The position numbers and the translations under genes were made by a program. The notes beneath the pieces are model-generated. The model worked only from the letters and a program-made list of their open reading frames with translations. It searched no databases and had not been told where the DNA came from. Below, piece after piece: positions 3,032 to 34,611 of a DNA stretch of 35,781 nt; position 1 is the first letter of the stretch; each line of letters starts with the position of its first letter. This stretch comes from Actinomycetota bacterium (GTDB lineage Bacteria; Actinomycetota; Actinomycetes; JACCUZ01), in assembly GCA_030841035.1 (NCBI GenBank), contig JAVEDI010000085.1, positions 1-35,781 on the forward strand. The letters run 5' to 3'.

Positions 3032-3811
3032 TCAGCCCGGCGGGAACAGGTCGGCGAGCCATCCTTGCCAGCCTTCGAGCACCGCGGGTGCCCGGCCGGC
3101 CGCCTCGGCCCCGTACAGCCAGAACCAGACGCTGACGACAGCCTGGCCGTCCGCGCCCTCCACCGCCACCAGCGCCGTACCCGGCCCCGGCTCGTCGATG
3201 CGCAGGGTCAGCATCCGCGGCGCGGCCCGCTCGAGCGTGCCGGTCAGTGCCGTCGGTGCGGTTGGACCCGCCGCCACGCGATCGCCGTCGGAGGCTGTGC
3301 CCGCGATGCCCAGCGCGCCGGTGAGGATGTCCCACGCCTCGTCGAGCCCGACGGCGGCCATGCTCATGGGCTGCACCGCGACGCCCACCTGCCCGGGGAA
3401 GTAGCGGCGATGCAGCTGCAGGTTGTGCAGGAACATCCGCCAGCCCGCGTCCAGGCCGTCAATCTGGTCGTTGTGCTCCTCGCCGGCCCCGAAGCCGCTG
3501 TTCACCAGGCGCACCACACAGGTGTCGCCGTCGCGGGCCTCGATCAGCCACTCGAAGGCCATGCCGTCCCCGGTGTCTCCGCCGTCGAACACGACCCGCT
3601 GCGGCGGGTCCCAGACCCGCACGCGGCCCCGGACCGACATCGAGTCGCCGGGCCCGAACTGCTGTACCACCTCGCCGCCCTCGCGCTGCTCGACGGTGCT
3701 GGGCACGAACCAGCTGCCGATGCCGGGGCCGGTTGCCACGGCGGCCCAGATCTCCTCGGGCGTTCCCGGAACCTGCACCTCGAGTGCGATCGACGGGCTG
3801 TCCTCGGTCAT
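3032..3811 (-). CDS. SRPBCC / AHSA1-like domain protein
   Basis: 259 residues beginning with the START/AHSA1 (SRPBCC superfamily) pattern: a first beta-strand (IALEVQVPGTPEEIWAAVATG), then GIGSWFVPSTVE, then VVFDGG and FEWLIEARDGDTCVVRLVNSGF. The fold is a helix-grip cavity that binds hydrophobic ligands. The C-terminal half (from about residue 150) looks like a second, more divergent SRPBCC-type segment, so the protein may be a tandem. The ATG follows a clear GGAGG 4-5 nt upstream. No signal peptide or membrane segment. The ligand is unknown and neighbours give no clue. Confidence 0.8.
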   Translation of the reverse strand: MTEDSPSIALEVQVPGTPEEIWAAVATGPGIGSWFVPSTVEQREGGEVVQQFGPGDSMSVRGRVRVWDPPQRVVFDGGDTGDGMAFEWLIEARDGDTCVVRLVNSGFGAGEEHNDQIDGLDAGWRMFLHNLQLHRRYFPGQVGVAVQPMSMAAVGLDEAWDILTGALGIAGTASDGDRVAAGPTAPTALTGTLERAAPRMLTLRIDEPGPGTALVAVEGADGQAVVSVWFWLYGAEAAGRAPAVLEGWQGWLADLFPPG

Positions 3812-10000: not shown

Positions 10001-12621
10001 GGCGTGCGCGCCAGGTAGTACAGCCGGTCCCCGTTCTGCAGGTCGGTCAGCTGGTTCTCGAAGACATAGTTGAACGTCGTGCCCAGCAGTCCGCCGAACA
10101 CGTTCGTGACCTCGGCCAGGCCACCGACCCAGAGGTCGACGTCGTCGAGCCCGGTCACCGATCGGGTGCCGTCGTTCCCCCAACGGGCACCCGTGCTGTT
10201 CATGAACTGTGCGGCGTCATCCGGAGCGACGTCCCCGGCGGCGGCCTCCGGGCTGACGATCGCCCGCGCCGCGTCCCGCTTGGCCGTCAGAGTCGTGGCC
10301 CCGACGATGCTGGGGTGCTTGCCGTACGCCGCGACGAAGTTGATCAGCGACTCGGGGTGCTTGAGGTGCTCCCCGAAGTCGACCCAGCTGAGGTAGGGCT
10401 TCAGCTGGCCGTCGTTGGTGGAGTTGAACAGCTCACGACGAAAGACGTTCAGCGACGGGATGCCCTCGGAGCGCGCCCGCGTCAGGTTGATCGCCGCCAG
10501 GTCCAGGGGCAGACCGAGGAGGTTGTTCCGCAGCGTGTCGGTGACGAACTCGTCGAGCTCGTTGCCGACCTGGTCCGACATGCCCATGATGACGCTGCCG
10601 GCGGCCTCCTCTGAGGTGAGCGGGCCGGCCGGGCCGCCGTCCGTGTACGCAGGCGGGTTGAGGAACCCGTCGAGCAGTGAGATGTCGTTGTGCGAGCCGT
10701 TCTCGTTCGTGCGGGAGATCGTCTCGGTCAGCATGGAGTGACCGAAGCGGTAGACCGCGTGAGCGAACTCGGCCTTGATGGCGGGATCGATATCGGTCTG
10801 GGCGAAGGCGAACGGCTCGAAGGGGTTGATCGCCGGCTGGACCTTGCGGGCGAACTCCTCGAACACCAAGTGCTGGTACTCCATCTCGGTCACGAAGCGC
10901 GCGGCCTGGAAGAGCCGCTCCCCGTTCCAGCCGGCGGCACCGCCGGCCAGCTTCCACTCGGCCAGCGCGGCGACGCCGGAGTCCGACGTGTCGTGGGTGA
11001 GGACGCCCTTGATGTAGCCGATCAACCGGTTGTGCTCGGAGTGAAAGATCTGGTGGATCGTGGTGAGCCCGATGTTCTCGTTCACGCGGCCGTCCCCGGC
11101 GATGAAGTGCGCGTCCAGCATCTCGTCGTCGTACGTGCCGGGCACCTGGCTCGCGAAGTCCGCTGACGCGACGTGATCGGCGTCGGGGTCGGGGGTCACC
11201 GGCGGCGTCCGCGGGTTGTGATCGGTGTCCTGCGGCGAGGGGTCGGCGTTGTGCGCGATGTCGGTCAGGAACGGTGTCTCGAAGGTGCGCACGTTCGTGG
11301 GGACCGGCACCGGGTTGGCCAGGTCGCCCTCCACCAGTCCGGTCGCAGTGACGTACTGCGGTAGGCCGTTCGCGCCGGGGATGAACGTGCCGTACGGGTC
11401 GGTCGCGATCATCGGGACGTCCAGCACGTCCTTGTCGCTCAGCAGCAGACCGAGCTTGGCCGCAGCCTGCTCCTTGACCGTCGTCCAGGTCGCCATGCCG
11501 CCGGCCGTGGGTCCGGCCGGACCGCCGAGCAGCCTGCCCGTCGACACCGGCTTGTCGTCCACCATGGCGTACTCACGCAAGAAGACCTGGTGCGAGGGGT
11601 GCGACGTGTACGTCTGGCTCTGGTCCACCCAGGAGGAGTCGGTGTTGGTGGCATCCTGTACGTCGTCGGGGGTGCCGAGGATCTTGTCCGGGCCGGGCTG
11701 GTTCTTGCCTCGCGTGAGCACCATGAAGCGCAGGTTCGGGTCGAGGTCGTCACCCTCGACGGCGCGGGTGCTCGGGTCGTCCTCGAAGATGTGGTTCGGG
11801 CCGGCGATCAGCGGGTCGTCGGCCTTGAGGGGCACGAACACGGTGCCGCCGCCCTTGACGGTCTGGTCGATCCCGTGGTCGAAGAACTGACCGAACAGAG
11901 TGAACAGCGAGTTGTACGGCGGTGACAGGCCGACGTCCGTGGTGACGTTGGGGATGAACAGCGTCTGGTGCTCCGGCACGCACCCCGCGGGGTCGCTCGG
12001 CCCGGTGCACGGCTGCACCCCATCGTTGCCCTGGGTGCGGACCGGGAAGCCGGCTGCCGTCACGGCCGCCGGGTTGGTCGAGGTCTGGTCCACGATCAGG
12101 TTGCTGATGACCCGCGGCTGCGAGTCGAAGACGTTGCCCTTCAGCTGCGTGTAGGACGTCGACCCGGGAGGACCGAAGCCCGCGGGTACCGGCTCCGCTC
12201 CCCGGAACGACTTCGAGCTCAGCCGAGGGAACGGGTGGTCCGCGGCGCCGAAGGTCTCCTGCCCCGGCTGCAGGTTGTTGCAGGAACCGTCGACCGTGCG
12301 CAGGCCCTTGGAGATGAGCGGGCTCGGGATCTGGTCGGGTCCGTTGCCGACCAGCGTCCCGCACGGGTTGGTCGGGGTAAGAGTGGCCGCGTGGTGCTCG
12401 GCGATCTTGATCTGCGCGAGGATGAACTTCAGGTCACTGGGCGTCACGGTGAAGCCCTGCCCGACCGGCGCCTGCGCTGCGCGGGCGCTGTGCGTCATCA
12501 GGGCCGCGGGCAGCATGCCGACGCACAGCAGCAGCGACGAGACGGCGGCCAGACTGCGCCGGCCCCGACCGGGCCTCTCGGTGGCGTGGCGCCCGAGCAG
12601 TGGCGTGCGGTGGGAACGCAT
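7024..12621 (-). CDS. Secreted animal-type heme peroxidase with RTX repeats and lamin-tail-like C-terminus
   Basis: 1865 residues. The ATG at 12621 is preceded by GTAAGGA and followed by a signal peptide (hydrophobic core about 24-41, ending SARAAQA). Residues about 150-860 are an animal heme peroxidase domain with the key residues present: Asp248-His249 (GQFFDHGID, distal His and heme-ester Asp), Arg512 and Glu515 (GDGRVNE, catalytic Arg and heme-ester Glu) and proximal His628 (YRFGHS). Residues about 975-1290 hold RTX-type glycine-rich repeats (GGxGxD) that bind calcium on export. Two Ig/cadherin-like modules follow (about 1425-1520 and 1530-1622), then a Pro/Ala-rich linker (1623-1665), a beta-sandwich segment, and a lamin-tail-like domain (about 1775-1865). 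Family knowledge suggests it oxidises halides or organic substrates outside the cell. The open frame runs 110 codons further upstream, judged non-coding. Confidence 0.93.
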   Translation of the reverse strand: MRSHRTPLLGRHATERPGRGRRSLAAVSSLLLCVGMLPAALMTHSARAAQAPVGQGFTVTPSDLKFILAQIKIAEHHAATLTPTNPCGTLVGNGPDQIPSPLISKGLRTVDGSCNNLQPGQETFGAADHPFPRLSSKSFRGAEPVPAGFGPPGSTSYTQLKGNVFDSQPRVISNLIVDQTSTNPAAVTAAGFPVRTQGNDGVQPCTGPSDPAGCVPEHQTLFIPNVTTDVGLSPPYNSLFTLFGQFFDHGIDQTVKGGGTVFVPLKADDPLIAGPNHIFEDDPSTRAVEGDDLDPNLRFMVLTRGKNQPGPDKILGTPDDVQDATNTDSSWVDQSQTYTSHPSHQVFLREYAMVDDKPVSTGRLLGGPAGPTAGGMATWTTVKEQAAAKLGLLLSDKDVLDVPMIATDPYGTFIPGANGLPQYVTATGLVEGDLANPVPVPTNVRTFETPFLTDIAHNADPSPQDTDHNPRTPPVTPDPDADHVASADFASQVPGTYDDEMLDAHFIAGDGRVNENIGLTTIHQIFHSEHNRLIGYIKGVLTHDTSDSGVAALAEWKLAGGAAGWNGERLFQAARFVTEMEYQHLVFEEFARKVQPAINPFEPFAFAQTDIDPAIKAEFAHAVYRFGHSMLTETISRTNENGSHNDISLLDGFLNPPAYTDGGPAGPLTSEEAAGSVIMGMSDQVGNELDEFVTDTLRNNLLGLPLDLAAINLTRARSEGIPSLNVFRRELFNSTNDGQLKPYLSWVDFGEHLKHPESLINFVAAYGKHPSIVGATTLTAKRDAARAIVSPEAAAGDVAPDDAAQFMNSTGARWGNDGTRSVTGLDDVDLWVGGLAEVTNVFGGLLGTTFNYVFENQLTDLQNGDRLYYLARTPGMNLRTQLEGNSFAELMMRNTNVKTLKADAFATADCKFELKNLAGTPEGYAAPGGGNTVADDPNSECDESSLLIRMPDGTIKYRNRNPVDPPGINGQSVYNGTDGVDRISGGNDSDTFWGGLGNDVIEGGDGADVALGGEGDDIITDLAGDDVPKGGPGNDAIDAGPGLDILMGGEGKDFTNGGANANETFGGDGDDFMMLGQSLDAAFGDSGDDWEEGGDQPDLMQGDSGNLFFLDDSQRNGHDILIGQGGDDDYDMEGGDDIGVGGPGVEKVAGASGFDWEIGLGDPQPQSQDLALPLVGLDVLTVDVRDKFNEVEALSGWDHNDVLRGDSVVPADVGGGGFIGNDVLTQAGVDRIAGLADLLPAGATAAAVPATATTDAVPAKTWGAGNILLGGGGSDVLEGRGADDIIDGDKYLSVRLSVRTDPDDPATEIGSAGVEQPGQSAMTSQYLRDSTGALTGPTLQEAVFAGNVNPGNIVAVREILTGSAGTDSAVFSGPLDDYEVTTVDGRTTVAHLGGTGADGTDTLVNVERLIFTDQTMVLGSSTNAPATGTVDVAPATATEGMQLTASRAFSDADGVQTASIAFSWEVETNSGGTASWSLVGEGTTFTPTNNEVGARLRAVATFTDGAGVLEKVTSAATNAVVNVNQPATGDPTLSDTTPEQGSPVTALVAAIQDPDGLAGVAFGYQWQQRDGGAPFTDIDGATNKGFTPALAQVGRDIRVVVSFTDAHGTVERRTSAPATVSAVPGPPAQDPPAQGPAPEGAAPAGSAPAGPAAGGPAAQQPPAPARGASNAALAVVSSLSSVAVAAGGRATISGTVSPFKGVTLTLQRRTGTSGWITVATRTIPVTATHGRFTLPVPTGRSGTAIYRVKASGPGLQTTTSKVRRFAVYRTKVTRVSPAEPEFVTVRNTGKVTVDLAGWTLRDRAGIAVRLPRRVLAPGELVRVYTGSGASGAGRLYLGLSADVWAPHDTVRLVDLSATVVSKLRY

Positions 12622-31374: not shown

Positions 31375-31920
31375 TCAGGCGGCGCAGGTGCGATCGGCCT
31401 GGGCCCGAGTGTCCTCAGGGCCGGCGCCGAGCTCGGCCAGCAGTGCGGCAATGTCCTCGTCGGGCCTGGACTGCTCCGCCGGGTCAGCGCCGGCAGCGAG
31501 CAGGCTCGTGAGGCCCGCACCCTCGTCGCGCTCGCCGGTGCCCGGGCCTTGGGCCAGGCGCAGCTCGCACCACACCGTCTTCCCCGCGGCTGTCAGCTCG
31601 ACCCCGTCCTCGGCCGCGAGATTCTTCACCAGGCTCAAGCCGCGACCGGTGGTGGCGTTGACGCCGTAGTCTCGCTGTATCGGCAGGCTCAGCGACTGGT
31701 CGCTGACGGCGAGCCGCAGCCGTTCATCGGTCAGGCGCAGGGCGACGGTGAATCCGGTCCCGGCGTGCAGCACCGCGTTCGTGGTCAGTTCGCTGACGAG
31801 AGTGACTGCCGACCAGGCGAACGGGTCCGCGGCCCAGCTGTCGAGGGTCTCGTTCACGAATCGACGGGCCTCGGAGACGCTGCGGGTGTCTGCAGAGAAC
31901 GTCGCCTCGGCGGCTGGCAT
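31375..31920 (-). CDS. Anti-sigma regulatory ATPase (RsbW/SpoIIAB-like)
   Basis: 181 residues from the ATG at 31920. A single HATPase_c domain (about 5-115): FSADTRSVSEARRFVNETL at the start, N-box VSELTTNAVLHAG, the DQSL segment, and TGRGLSLVKNLA in place of the G2 box. A 65-residue acidic, Ala-rich tail follows (GERDEGAGLTSL to QADRTCAA) that the family does not need. Expected role: serine kinase and anti-sigma factor, or a related protein-binding ATPase. The upstream region on its strand is the hairpin repeat array. A 13-nt palindrome GGACAT-C-ATGTCC (31923-31935) lies 2 nt before the start and could be an operator or simply the leader. Confidence 0.88.
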   Translation of the reverse strand: MPAAEATFSADTRSVSEARRFVNETLDSWAADPFAWSAVTLVSELTTNAVLHAGTGFTVALRLTDERLRLAVSDQSLSLPIQRDYGVNATTGRGLSLVKNLAAEDGVELTAAGKTVWCELRLAQGPGTGERDEGAGLTSLLAAGADPAEQSRPDEDIAALLAELGAGPEDTRAQADRTCAA

Positions 31921-31969
31921 CCGGACATCATGTCCACGCTCGCTGTCCGGAAAACCTCTCGGCGGCGCC

Positions 31970-32540
31970 GAGCTTCCCGTCCCGCTGGCCGGCCAGCTGC
32001 CGTTCACCCCCGCCACCCCGTCCGATAGGCCTGTGGTCGCGGCCCGCCACCGTCCGATAGGCCTGTGGTCGCGGCGGGGGGCCGTCGGCGACCCTGGGCC
32101 TATCGAACGTCGTCAGGCGCACAGCACGGCCGGGGACCTGCGGCGGGGTGGCCGCGCGGGCGGCGACGAGCTTCCCGTCCCGCTTGCCGGCCAGCTGCCG
32201 TTGACACCCCCCGCCACCCGTCCGATAGGCTTGGTCCGCCACCGTCCGATAGGCCCGTGGTCGCGGCGCGCCACCACCGTTCGATAGGCCTGTGGTCGCG
32301 GCGGGGGGGCCGTCGGCGACCCTGGGCCTATCGAATTTCGTCTCAGCCACAGCGCCCGGGCCCACCGCCGGCAAGCTGCCCCACCACCCCCTCCGACAGG
32401 CCCGTGGTCGCGGCCCGCCACCCCCCATCGATAGGCCTGTGGTCGCGGCGGGCGGTCGTGGGCGACCCTGGGCCTATCGAACGTCGTCTCGCGCCCAGCA
32501 CGACCGGGGACCTGCGGCCGGCTGTGTGGCCAGGCGGGTG
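31970..32540. repeat. Degenerate tandem repeat array with three long hairpins
   Basis: About three non-coding units of 180-200 bp. The unit anchor GCCGGCCAGCTGCC occurs at 31988, 32186 and (one change) 32367. Each unit ends in a hairpin whose outer arms are TCGATAGGCC and GGCCTATCGA (CGATAGGCC/GGCCTATCG in the first) with a second stem GTCGC/GCGAC inside: 32055-32105, 32281-32334, 32428-32480. Four further copies of the left arm alone (TCCGATAGGCCTGTGGTCGC or variants) lie at about 32021, 32221, 32245 and 32392, usually before GCCCGCCAC. Reading frames through it code only low-complexity peptides. It lies upstream of the RsbW-like gene on the minus strand. Confidence 0.85.
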
Positions 32541-33300
32541 CCATCGCCGCGTGGCAGACGGATCAGGCGCTGGAGCTGCCCCTGGCGGCCGGTAGGCCGC
32601 GCGGACCCCACGGGCTCAGGACGCGGGTGCGGGGGCGGGAGGAAGCCGAAGGATGAAGATTCCGTGCGTGGCAGGTGACACCGCCTGCCGGTCACCGCGA
32701 TGGTGGTGGAGCCGCCGGAGGTCTGTCCCGCACCGGTCGCGGCGCGCCCGAGCCCAGACACAACTCAGCGCTTCCGCCTGTGAGGCGAAAGCGCTGGTCA
32801 GTTGCGCGGCGATAGGGACGAGGCCAAGGACTAGGGAGTGCCGGCCGAGTCGGTGGCCGCCGAGTGGCAGCGCCGGGCCGACGCGCTCGGGTCCGACGCC
32901 GAAGCCCGGGACCGGCGGGCGCCAACACCCACTGGACGACGTTGAGAGGCGGACGCGGTATGAGGACCTTGCGGATCGCCCTGATCGTCGCCATATGCTT
33001 CCGATGGCCTACTCTCGTCGCGGCATATGCGGCCGATTGGGACTTCTGTGGCTCCTCCCCGTCAGACGTCCGGGGCGGCTCTTGGTCCGGATGGAAGCGA
33101 AAAGCAACGGCGTCCCAAGGCACAACGGCCCAAGGGGCAGTTGCACGGTTACCTAAACGATTCTCTCGACATCGACTCGCATGGGTTACCACTGCTACAT
33201 CTTCAACGGGCTCGGCGACACATGGACGTACATGCGCTGCGCGGCGTGTTGGCTTGGGTCTACGACGGCTACCTAACCAACGAGGGTGCCGACGGAGTCC
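32541..33300. other. Largely non-coding transition region with a 44-nt palindrome
   Basis: From about 32640 base composition becomes visibly less G+C-rich than the left of the window. A long imperfect palindrome lies at 32761-32804: CAACT, CAGCGCTT, CGCCT, then AGGCG, AAGCGCTG, AGTTG with small bulges. Open frames here are weak. One (32960-33310) begins with a signal-peptide-like stretch (RTLRIALIVAICFRWPTLVAAYA), but its C-terminal half is Arg-rich and looks like an off-frame reading. Another at 33181-33276 encodes 31 residues with a CAAC pair. I see no gene that I can defend. Confidence 0.4.
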
Positions 33301-33402
33301 ATGTCCTTGAGCACGTCTTCCAGCGACCGCATCGCCCTTGAGCGCCGCACTCGTTCACGCCGGGACAGAACCAAACCAGGCTCAATCGCGTTCTTAACTG
33401 GC

Positions 33403-33918
33403 GTGGGGAAGGACGCGAGGCGTCGAAGAGACGAGGACTTCATCCGCTTTGTGATCGGCAGTTCGCGTCGCCTGCAACGACTCGCGGCCGGGATGTGCGC
33501 AGGGGACCGGGACCGAGCGCAAGACTTGGTGCAGGAGGCTCTGGCGGCTACGTACAGCAAGTGGCCGAGGGTCAGCGAGGGCGACCCGTGGGCGTATGCC
33601 CGCAAGTGCCTCGTCAATGCCAACACGAGCTATTGGCGACGCAAGCCATGGCGAGAGACGACGGTGGCACAGGTACACGAGATGCCTGAGGCGAAGTCAG
33701 TCACCGATGACATCGATGGGCGCCAACTCCTTCGCAGTCTCATGAACATTCTCACAGCAAGAGAAAGAACTGTCGTTGTCCTCAGGTACTTGGAGGAACT
33801 CACAGAACGAGAAACGGCCGAGACGATGGGGATAGCTGTTGGGACGGTCAAGAGCACATGTGCGCGGGCGCTGACAAAACTGAGCACCGCGCTCGCTCTT
33901 GCGGATGAACAAGTCTAG
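33403..33918 (+). CDS. SigE-family (ECF-like) RNA polymerase sigma factor
   Basis: 171 residues from the GTG at 33403. Region 2: DEDFIRFVIGSSRRLQRLAAGMC, then AGDRDRAQDLVQEALAATYSKWPRV, the typical 2.4-like segment. Region 4: MNILTARERTVVVLRYLEELTERETAETMGIAVGTVKSTCARALTKL. This is the SigE family of actinobacterial ECF-like factors. The frame also has a GTG at 33286 and an ATG at 33301; 33403 was chosen because family members start shortly before the DEDF-type helix, and this gives the usual length. Codon use is less G+C-biased than in the left half of the window. The gene for its probable membrane partner starts 9 nt after the stop. Confidence 0.9.
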   Translation: MGKDARRRRDEDFIRFVIGSSRRLQRLAAGMCAGDRDRAQDLVQEALAATYSKWPRVSEGDPWAYARKCLVNANTSYWRRKPWRETTVAQVHEMPEAKSVTDDIDGRQLLRSLMNILTARERTVVVLRYLEELTERETAETMGIAVGTVKSTCARALTKLSTALALADEQV

Positions 33919-33927
33919 GGAGACGCT

Positions 33928-34611
33928 ATGGCTTTGGAGGAACGGCTGCGGGACATGTTGTCGCAGGACGACACGGAGGCTTGGACGATCGACCCGCGGC
34001 AAGTCATGCGACGCGCGCGGAGACAGCGTCGCGCCCGCGTGCTTCTGGGTGCGACCGCCGTTGCACTGAGTTTGGCCGCAGCGAGCTTCGTGGGCTTGAA
34101 TGGCTGGACGGATGGAGCTCACACGTCGTCGGCGCTCACCGCGCCTTCTGCAACCGCTGAATCACCTTCGGCGGACAGCACCGCAGCGGTGGTCGTGGAA
34201 TACGAGAAGGATCTCGGCAAGTGGGTAGCTTGCCTTCAGGCCCGGGGTATTGAACTAACCACTCCCGTCGAGCAGACCGACGCTCTCATTGCAGAGCTTG
34301 GCAGATATAAGGATGACCCGGCCTATGCCACCGCGACACGTGGGTGCTCCACCCTCCTCCCGGAGGTGACACCGGCGCTTGAACGAGCATGGGGCCAGGA
34401 TCCGACCACGCTGCTGTCTGTCGAGCAACTGCAGGCGGAAAGGGACTACGCGGATTGCATGCATCGCAACGGCGCGGCGGCTTTCCCGGAGCCAGGGTCC
34501 AATGGTTTCACCGAACAGCAGTGGCTCTCTTGGAATATTGCGGTCGAGGCGAGTCCGTCGCAAGCGGCCCTTAAGGTCTGCGGTCCACTGAGCCTGCCGG
34601 CGCCACGCTGA
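33928..34611 (+). CDS. Membrane protein, probable partner of the adjacent sigma factor
   Basis: 227 residues. The N-terminal cytoplasmic 36 residues (LEERLRDMLSQDDTEAW, then RQVMRRARRQRRARV) are followed by one transmembrane helix (about 38-58) and an outside region with a Ser/Thr/Ala-rich linker. The outer domain carries KWVACLQARGIEL and, later, YADCMHRNGAAAFPEP, a repeated ACM-x-x-x-G type motif common in secreted actinobacterial proteins, with further cysteines (RGCSTLL, VCGPL) that could form disulfides. Being co-transcribed with a SigE-family factor and having anti-sigma-like topology suggests it controls that factor, but no zinc anti-sigma motif is seen. A good AGGGAG precedes the ATG. 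Confidence 0.75.
   Translation: MALEERLRDMLSQDDTEAWTIDPRQVMRRARRQRRARVLLGATAVALSLAAASFVGLNGWTDGAHTSSALTAPSATAESPSADSTAAVVVEYEKDLGKWVACLQARGIELTTPVEQTDALIAELGRYKDDPAYATATRGCSTLLPEVTPALERAWGQDPTTLLSVEQLQAERDYADCMHRNGAAAFPEPGSNGFTEQQWLSWNIAVEASPSQAALKVCGPLSLPAPR

Follow-up and report, generated by a model that had tools for sequence, protein, structure and literature searches.

A tandem hairpin array in an actinobacterial genome belongs to a dispersed palindrome family associated with AbiEi/DUF559-like genes

A tandem palindrome array beside an RsbW-like gene

A contig of an Actinomycetota bacterium (GCA_030841035.1, JAVEDI010000085.1; "the window" hereafter, i.e., the whole stretch of 35,781 nucleotides analyzed) carries an array of long hairpins just 5′ of a gene for an RsbW-like ATPase, which raises the question of whether these hairpins serve that gene or have another origin. 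An earlier note, made from the sequence alone, had described the array and left several readings open, including a regulatory element of the neighboring gene and a palindromic element that had spread. The identity of the neighbor was confirmed by a match to Pfam HATPase_c_2 (PF13581, E = 4.9e-9; 31375..31920, minus strand).

The whole array (31961..32540, no strand assigned, as for the palindromes) consists of about three tandemly duplicated units of ~190 bp with palindromes and half-sites (repeat families D1–D4). By direct reading, it holds three palindromes of 61–62 bp and four left half-sites, as the note had counted them. The palindromes lie at 32050..32110 (22-bp arms, 15-nt loop), 32277..32338 (62 bp), and 32424..32484, and score 74.7, 59.9, and 69.3 bits, respectively, with the covariance model introduced below. 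The solitary left half-sites, all on the plus strand, lie at 32023..32042 and 32247..32266 (0 mismatches each), at 32394..32413 (1 mismatch), and at ~32225..32240, the last being a degenerate copy, CGATAGGCTTGG, read directly and aligned in repeat family D1. Right arms are confined to the three palindromes, so that the right arm indeed never occurs without the left. Two other parts of that description need amending: the left arm attributed to all hairpins, TCGATAGGCC, is exact in palindromes 2 and 3 only, palindrome 1 having CCGATAGGCC and the palindrome stem being broken by a central mismatch (TGT vs CTG), and the units, while close to the proposed 180–200 bp, are tandemly duplicated together with flanking sequence (31961–32017 recurs at 32159–32215, 89%).

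A chance origin of the arm matches is excluded: left-arm-type sequences match 8 times in the array and right arms 3 times, whereas 100 dinucleotide shuffles average 0.05 and 0.00 matches, respectively, and none of them (0/100) reproduced the array. The palindromes fold well as DNA on either strand (z = −2.9 to −5.7). The nearest full palindrome lies ~130 bp outside the start of the RsbW-like gene, and neither a terminator-like match (T-tract or T-run) nor a sigma-70-like promoter match was found in the array.

A dispersed family with conserved arms and random loops

Searching the same genome with a 65-base query returned 28 places, while relatives gave weak partial matches only. With 16 copies as input, a covariance model then delimited 23 full palindromes at ~12 intergenic places, on contigs C8, C13, C26, C50, C58, C62, C63, C75, C84, C91, C97, and C120 (the window). 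Full copies score at least 43.9 bits and are cleanly separated, the next-best places reaching ~22 bits, which is the level of chance hits in other genomes. Many copies elsewhere were what the earlier note had named as evidence for a palindrome that spread, and that reading is supported here. Since contig C84 ends and contig C58 begins inside such an array, these two contigs are probably neighbors.

The family is strikingly uniform in length, with 21 of the 23 full copies measuring exactly 61 bp, i.e., 22-bp arms around a 15-nt loop. Across 13 loci, identity is 95% in the arm cores and 85% in the inner GGTCGC blocks, and falls in the 15-nt loops to 45%, vs 43% for shuffled loops; clear relatedness between loops was seen only within clusters or among a few neighbors. 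Orienting the copies by their asymmetric center shows that the right arm always has CCAC, which faces CA in the left arm of 10 of 13 copies. Base-pair changes within this genome are no more frequent than in shuffles, hence these copies speak for a conservation of sequence and spacing and not for pairing as RNA, and a reading of each arm as a mini-hairpin (REPIN-like) found no supporting covariation either. The only Rfam 15 match was a single hit elsewhere, at the level of chance. At the two loci compared with the same-genus genome G001, the palindrome is missing from the orthologous regions, but the flanks in this nearest relative are too diverged to align, so that an exact empty site could not be recognized; the neighborhoods of the C26 and C62 copies are not conserved in relatives.

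We next consider the genes around the copies, with gene calls that come from a codon-usage script and are approximate. All 23 copies are intergenic or overlap only a predicted gene end, in a genome whose DNA is ~85% coding. The 12 informative places comprise four convergent, five co-directional, and three divergent gene pairs, where one co-directional assignment rests on a methyltransferase-like gene recognized by eye and one convergent assignment on the joining of C84 to C58. The adjacent genes share no common theme. The palindrome arm provides a TAG as the predicted stop codon at two convergent loci, an arrangement described for GTAG REPs (PMC3733652). Among individual neighbors, a gene resembling by eye an rRNA adenine methyltransferase lies beside a solitary palindrome on C26 (L123:8534–9333), and an integrase-core (rve) transposase gene lies at the end of C75 (L128:4605–5399), ~550 bp from a palindrome and with no sign of common arms.

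The arms themselves appear private to this genome. An exact-arm scan of 84,980 species gave 7 matches with unrelated inner sequence against a chance estimate of ~11, i.e., no other species was found to have these arms, and no copies of the palindrome turned up on plasmids or phages. The covariance model, however, matched genomes of two other families, where the elements measure 56 to 62 bp and mostly 61. These other-family palindromes and the G001 copies keep the inner GTGGTCGC/GCGACCAC or a close variant of it, with a GGTCG-to-CGACC spacing of 17 nt in nearly all copies, while their outer arms are entirely different yet complementary (TTTCGGCCCTC/GAGGGCCGAAA, CGTCGGGGTCGCT/AGCGACCCCGACG, CGTTCAGTCAC/GTGACTGAACG, and CACCGGTC/GACCGGTG). 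The earlier suggestion of selection on the structure is right only in part: between genera, outer arms are replaced and complementarity is kept, but within this genome, arms are kept as sequence. In genome G101, two palindromes of that genome's family (L170:8149–8209 and ~10685–10745) lie 2.5 kb apart around sulfatase-like and TetR-like genes, and not around a DUF559 gene. A viral scan for the inner core returned two contigs, apparently of the same phage, with matching outer arms, the others having no clear outer stem. The phage element, GTGGTCGC-N15-GCGACCAC between outer arms of its own (GTCTGGTTGG/CCAACCAGAC), lies just past a capsid-region gene (L191:4004–4034 and L193:5063–5093) and is possibly a terminator or a captured copy.

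Palindrome-bracketed AbiEi/DUF559-like genes across actinobacteria

One locus of the genome pairs the palindrome with a particular gene. On contig C97, palindromes at 36253–36313 and 37638–37698 enclose a gene (~36466–37551) for an AbiEi-like protein of 361 aa, the sole AbiEi/Vsr-type (DUF559-like) gene of this genome, with a FAD oxidase and an arginine deiminase gene as neighbors. Genome G117 has a homologous gene of 298 aa (29% identical over 250 aa in a pairwise alignment, E = 4e-5) that likewise sits between two palindromes, all within 1.2 kb, and no copy beyond this gene-flanking pair occurred in the 800 kb sampled (permuted core words gave ~0.2 hits). Homologues in Arthrobacter, Tsukamurella (two genes), and Collinsella are likewise bracketed, by arms that match each other and differ from those of every other locus. 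In Collinsella aerofaciens, which belongs to a different class of Actinomycetota, the flanking elements are arrays of the TGTTACAGATCGAGACA palindrome (L260:1750–2050 and 3152–3297).

We quantified this association by calling a locus bracketed when arms matched at ≥10 of 11 positions on both sides. By this near-match test, 13 of 25 homologue loci were bracketed and 12 were not, vs 53 of 4000 random intervals (p = 8e-18) and, in two other actinobacterial genomes, 8 of 543 ordinary genes (p = 1e-14). Demanding equal hairpin length left 10 of the 25 loci, vs 4 of the 4000 intervals and 2 of the 543 genes. An earlier exact-word test (5/26) was too strict, and a second test at ≥11 of 12 positions gave 9/25 against 1/1500 in the control; the thresholds of these tests were set after some loci had been seen. 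Because the control genomes are unmatched to the targets, the homologues are mutually related, and the C97 and G117 loci prompted the test, the p-values overstate the strength of the association. Nevertheless, the contrast between homologues and controls is very large. The link between gene and palindrome is statistical, and a mobilization of the palindrome by the protein would be a further step.

Tsukamurella tyrosinosolvens NCTC13231 offers an independent replication within a single strain: each of its two DUF559 genes has a palindrome of its own, which is also present as solitary copies. The palindrome of the first gene was found at 20 places on 8 records and that of the second at 12 places on 9 records, these being BLAST places that include the gene-flanking copies and may count one palindrome once per strand. 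Aligned copies of the first family are 92–94% identical in the arms and 40% in the loop region, a pattern much like that of the genome studied here. Ten of 12 solitary copies inspected lie between convergent genes, an arrangement that 49 kb of this strain's sequence shows in 8 of 57 adjacent gene pairs.

As to the protein, PADLOC AbiEi models match up to six of eight members, while Pfam DUF559 and the Vsr-type MTES_1575 model match five of eight, with E-values up to 0.01 and some of these matches falling short of the curated cut-offs. When the eight members were combined into a profile, it matched PDB 3hrl, an "Endonuclease-Like Protein" (7e-5). All eight have common conserved E, D, and D-G residues, seemingly of the kind seen in PD-(D/E)XK proteins. 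From these similarities, we predict a partner protein composed of an AbiEi-type winged helix (wHTH) and a Vsr/DUF559-type PD-(D/E)XK region, i.e., a putative nuclease.

Candidate origin of the palindromes

Given the dispersed family, the contrast between conserved arms and random loops, and the recurrent gene–palindrome association across actinobacteria, we consider the hairpins of the window to be, with fair probability, locally amplified, non-autonomous copies of a genome-dispersed palindrome, within a REP/REPtron-like system that includes a bracketed AbiEi/DUF559-type gene. The palindromes appear to be small mobile repeats of an undescribed family. Most likely, the protein acts on the arms and thereby copies or homogenizes them: it would recognize the palindrome arms and nick or cleave them, upon which palindromes could be copied, or their arms homogenized, at intergenic sites. 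Copies would then persist where a hairpin is harmless, e.g., between convergent gene ends, and the array beside the RsbW-like gene would have arisen through tandem duplication of one resident copy, with no evident role for that gene. The least explained feature is the constant length of the unrelated loops, which fits a homogenization of the arms only, or loops made of target DNA, but not simple copying. A broader proposition, to which we give slightly less than even credence, is that these are palindromic mobile elements unrelated to HUH/RAYT systems, in which every AbiEi-wHTH/Vsr-type nuclease gene would have a palindrome of its own. The gene product would recognize this palindrome by its arms and spread or homogenize it, keeping the arms identical, while the loop of constant length drifts freely or consists of target DNA.

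The classic bacterial palindromes with a domesticated transposase as "owner" are the REP elements. They form REPtrons with RAYT (Y1 tyrosine) transposases (PMC2817692, PMC3733652), and the palindromes described here resemble them in being short, intergenic, lineage-specific, and clustered or solitary, in their position beside gene ends with a TAG stop sometimes supplied by the palindrome, and in the bracketing of a protein gene by the same palindrome, with more than one gene–palindrome pair per genome. They differ in dimensions and number (22-bp arms, a 15-nt loop, and 23 copies, vs the 5–13-bp stems and hundreds of copies of REPs) and in their partner, here a wHTH plus PD-(D/E)XK-type protein. 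We do not claim REP/RAYT membership, because the defining transposase and head motif were both looked for and not found: the 99.8% complete draft had 0 matches to Y1_Tnp (PF01797), for which control genomes were positive, and a flank alignment showed no GTAG head beside the stem. CGTC-tagged REPs and untagged REP-like stem-loop families are likewise dispersed palindromes with no bracketed Y1 partner. The CGTC families have 8–9-bp stems, 4–5-nt loops, and no associated gene found (PMC3733652, PMC2267715); the stem and loop sizes here are unlike theirs, and CGTC-like letters follow the arm in some copies only. On the protein side, the N-terminal domain recalls the AbiEi antitoxin of AbiE type IV toxin–antitoxin systems, but here it is fused to a nuclease-type C-terminal region in a single gene, with no AbiEii toxin gene beside the annotated homologues. 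That C-terminal region belongs with the Vsr-type REase MTES_1575/DUF559 family, whose namesake is a large HEPN-transglutaminase-Vsr-wHTH protein (PMC3710099), unlike the small palindrome-bracketed gene product here. We found no literature joining AbiEi/DUF559-type proteins to palindromes, in a search that covered few subscription papers, so that novelty is provisional.

If correct, dispersed palindromes would have become paired with a protein a second time and independently, here with an unrelated nuclease-type one. This would provide a function for genes annotated merely as "AbiEi antitoxin" or "DUF559", explain intergenic hairpin families in actinobacteria, and allow the spread of palindromes to be tested with another enzyme. 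With one gene to one private palindrome, as in the two pairs of a single Tsukamurella strain, specificity becomes directly testable.

Among other explanations, the most serious is that the palindromes are host-maintained bidirectional terminators or mRNA 3′-end hairpins, which would also insulate the bracketed nuclease gene. The excess of convergent sites among solitary Tsukamurella copies speaks for it, as do the 4 of 12 convergent places in the genome studied here, yet the array has no T-tract terminator match, and the three divergent places are sites where no gene ends. Nor does it account for one common arm sequence around random loops of exactly 15 nt, or for a private arm per nuclease gene. 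We thus regard it as unlikely as a full explanation, whereas a terminator role of individual copies is possible and compatible with a nuclease-associated mobile palindrome. Less probable still is that the palindromes are decayed MITE-like repeats of an unrelated, lost transposon, with the AbiEi/DUF559 link incidental. The dispersal and local duplication of copies and the absence of a remaining Y1 transposase would suit such repeats, but neutral decay should hit arms and loops alike, as opposed to the conserved arm cores and random-level loops observed, and distant genera, whose arms differ, show the association with the gene as well. Finally, that the array regulates the RsbW-like gene as an attenuator or multi-site operator, an option raised in the earlier note and favored by the 5′ position and local amplification, is very improbable, since the 20 other full copies adjoin unrelated genes in every orientation (convergent, co-directional, and divergent), and the array has no terminator, promoter, or Rfam match.

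The composition boundary at which the earlier note placed the array lies farther along the contig: GC content is 75% in the array and drops to ~61% only past 33 kb. There, a SigE-family ECF sigma factor gene and then an unannotated 227-aa gene (33286–34611 of the window) have a GC content below that of the rest of the contig end.
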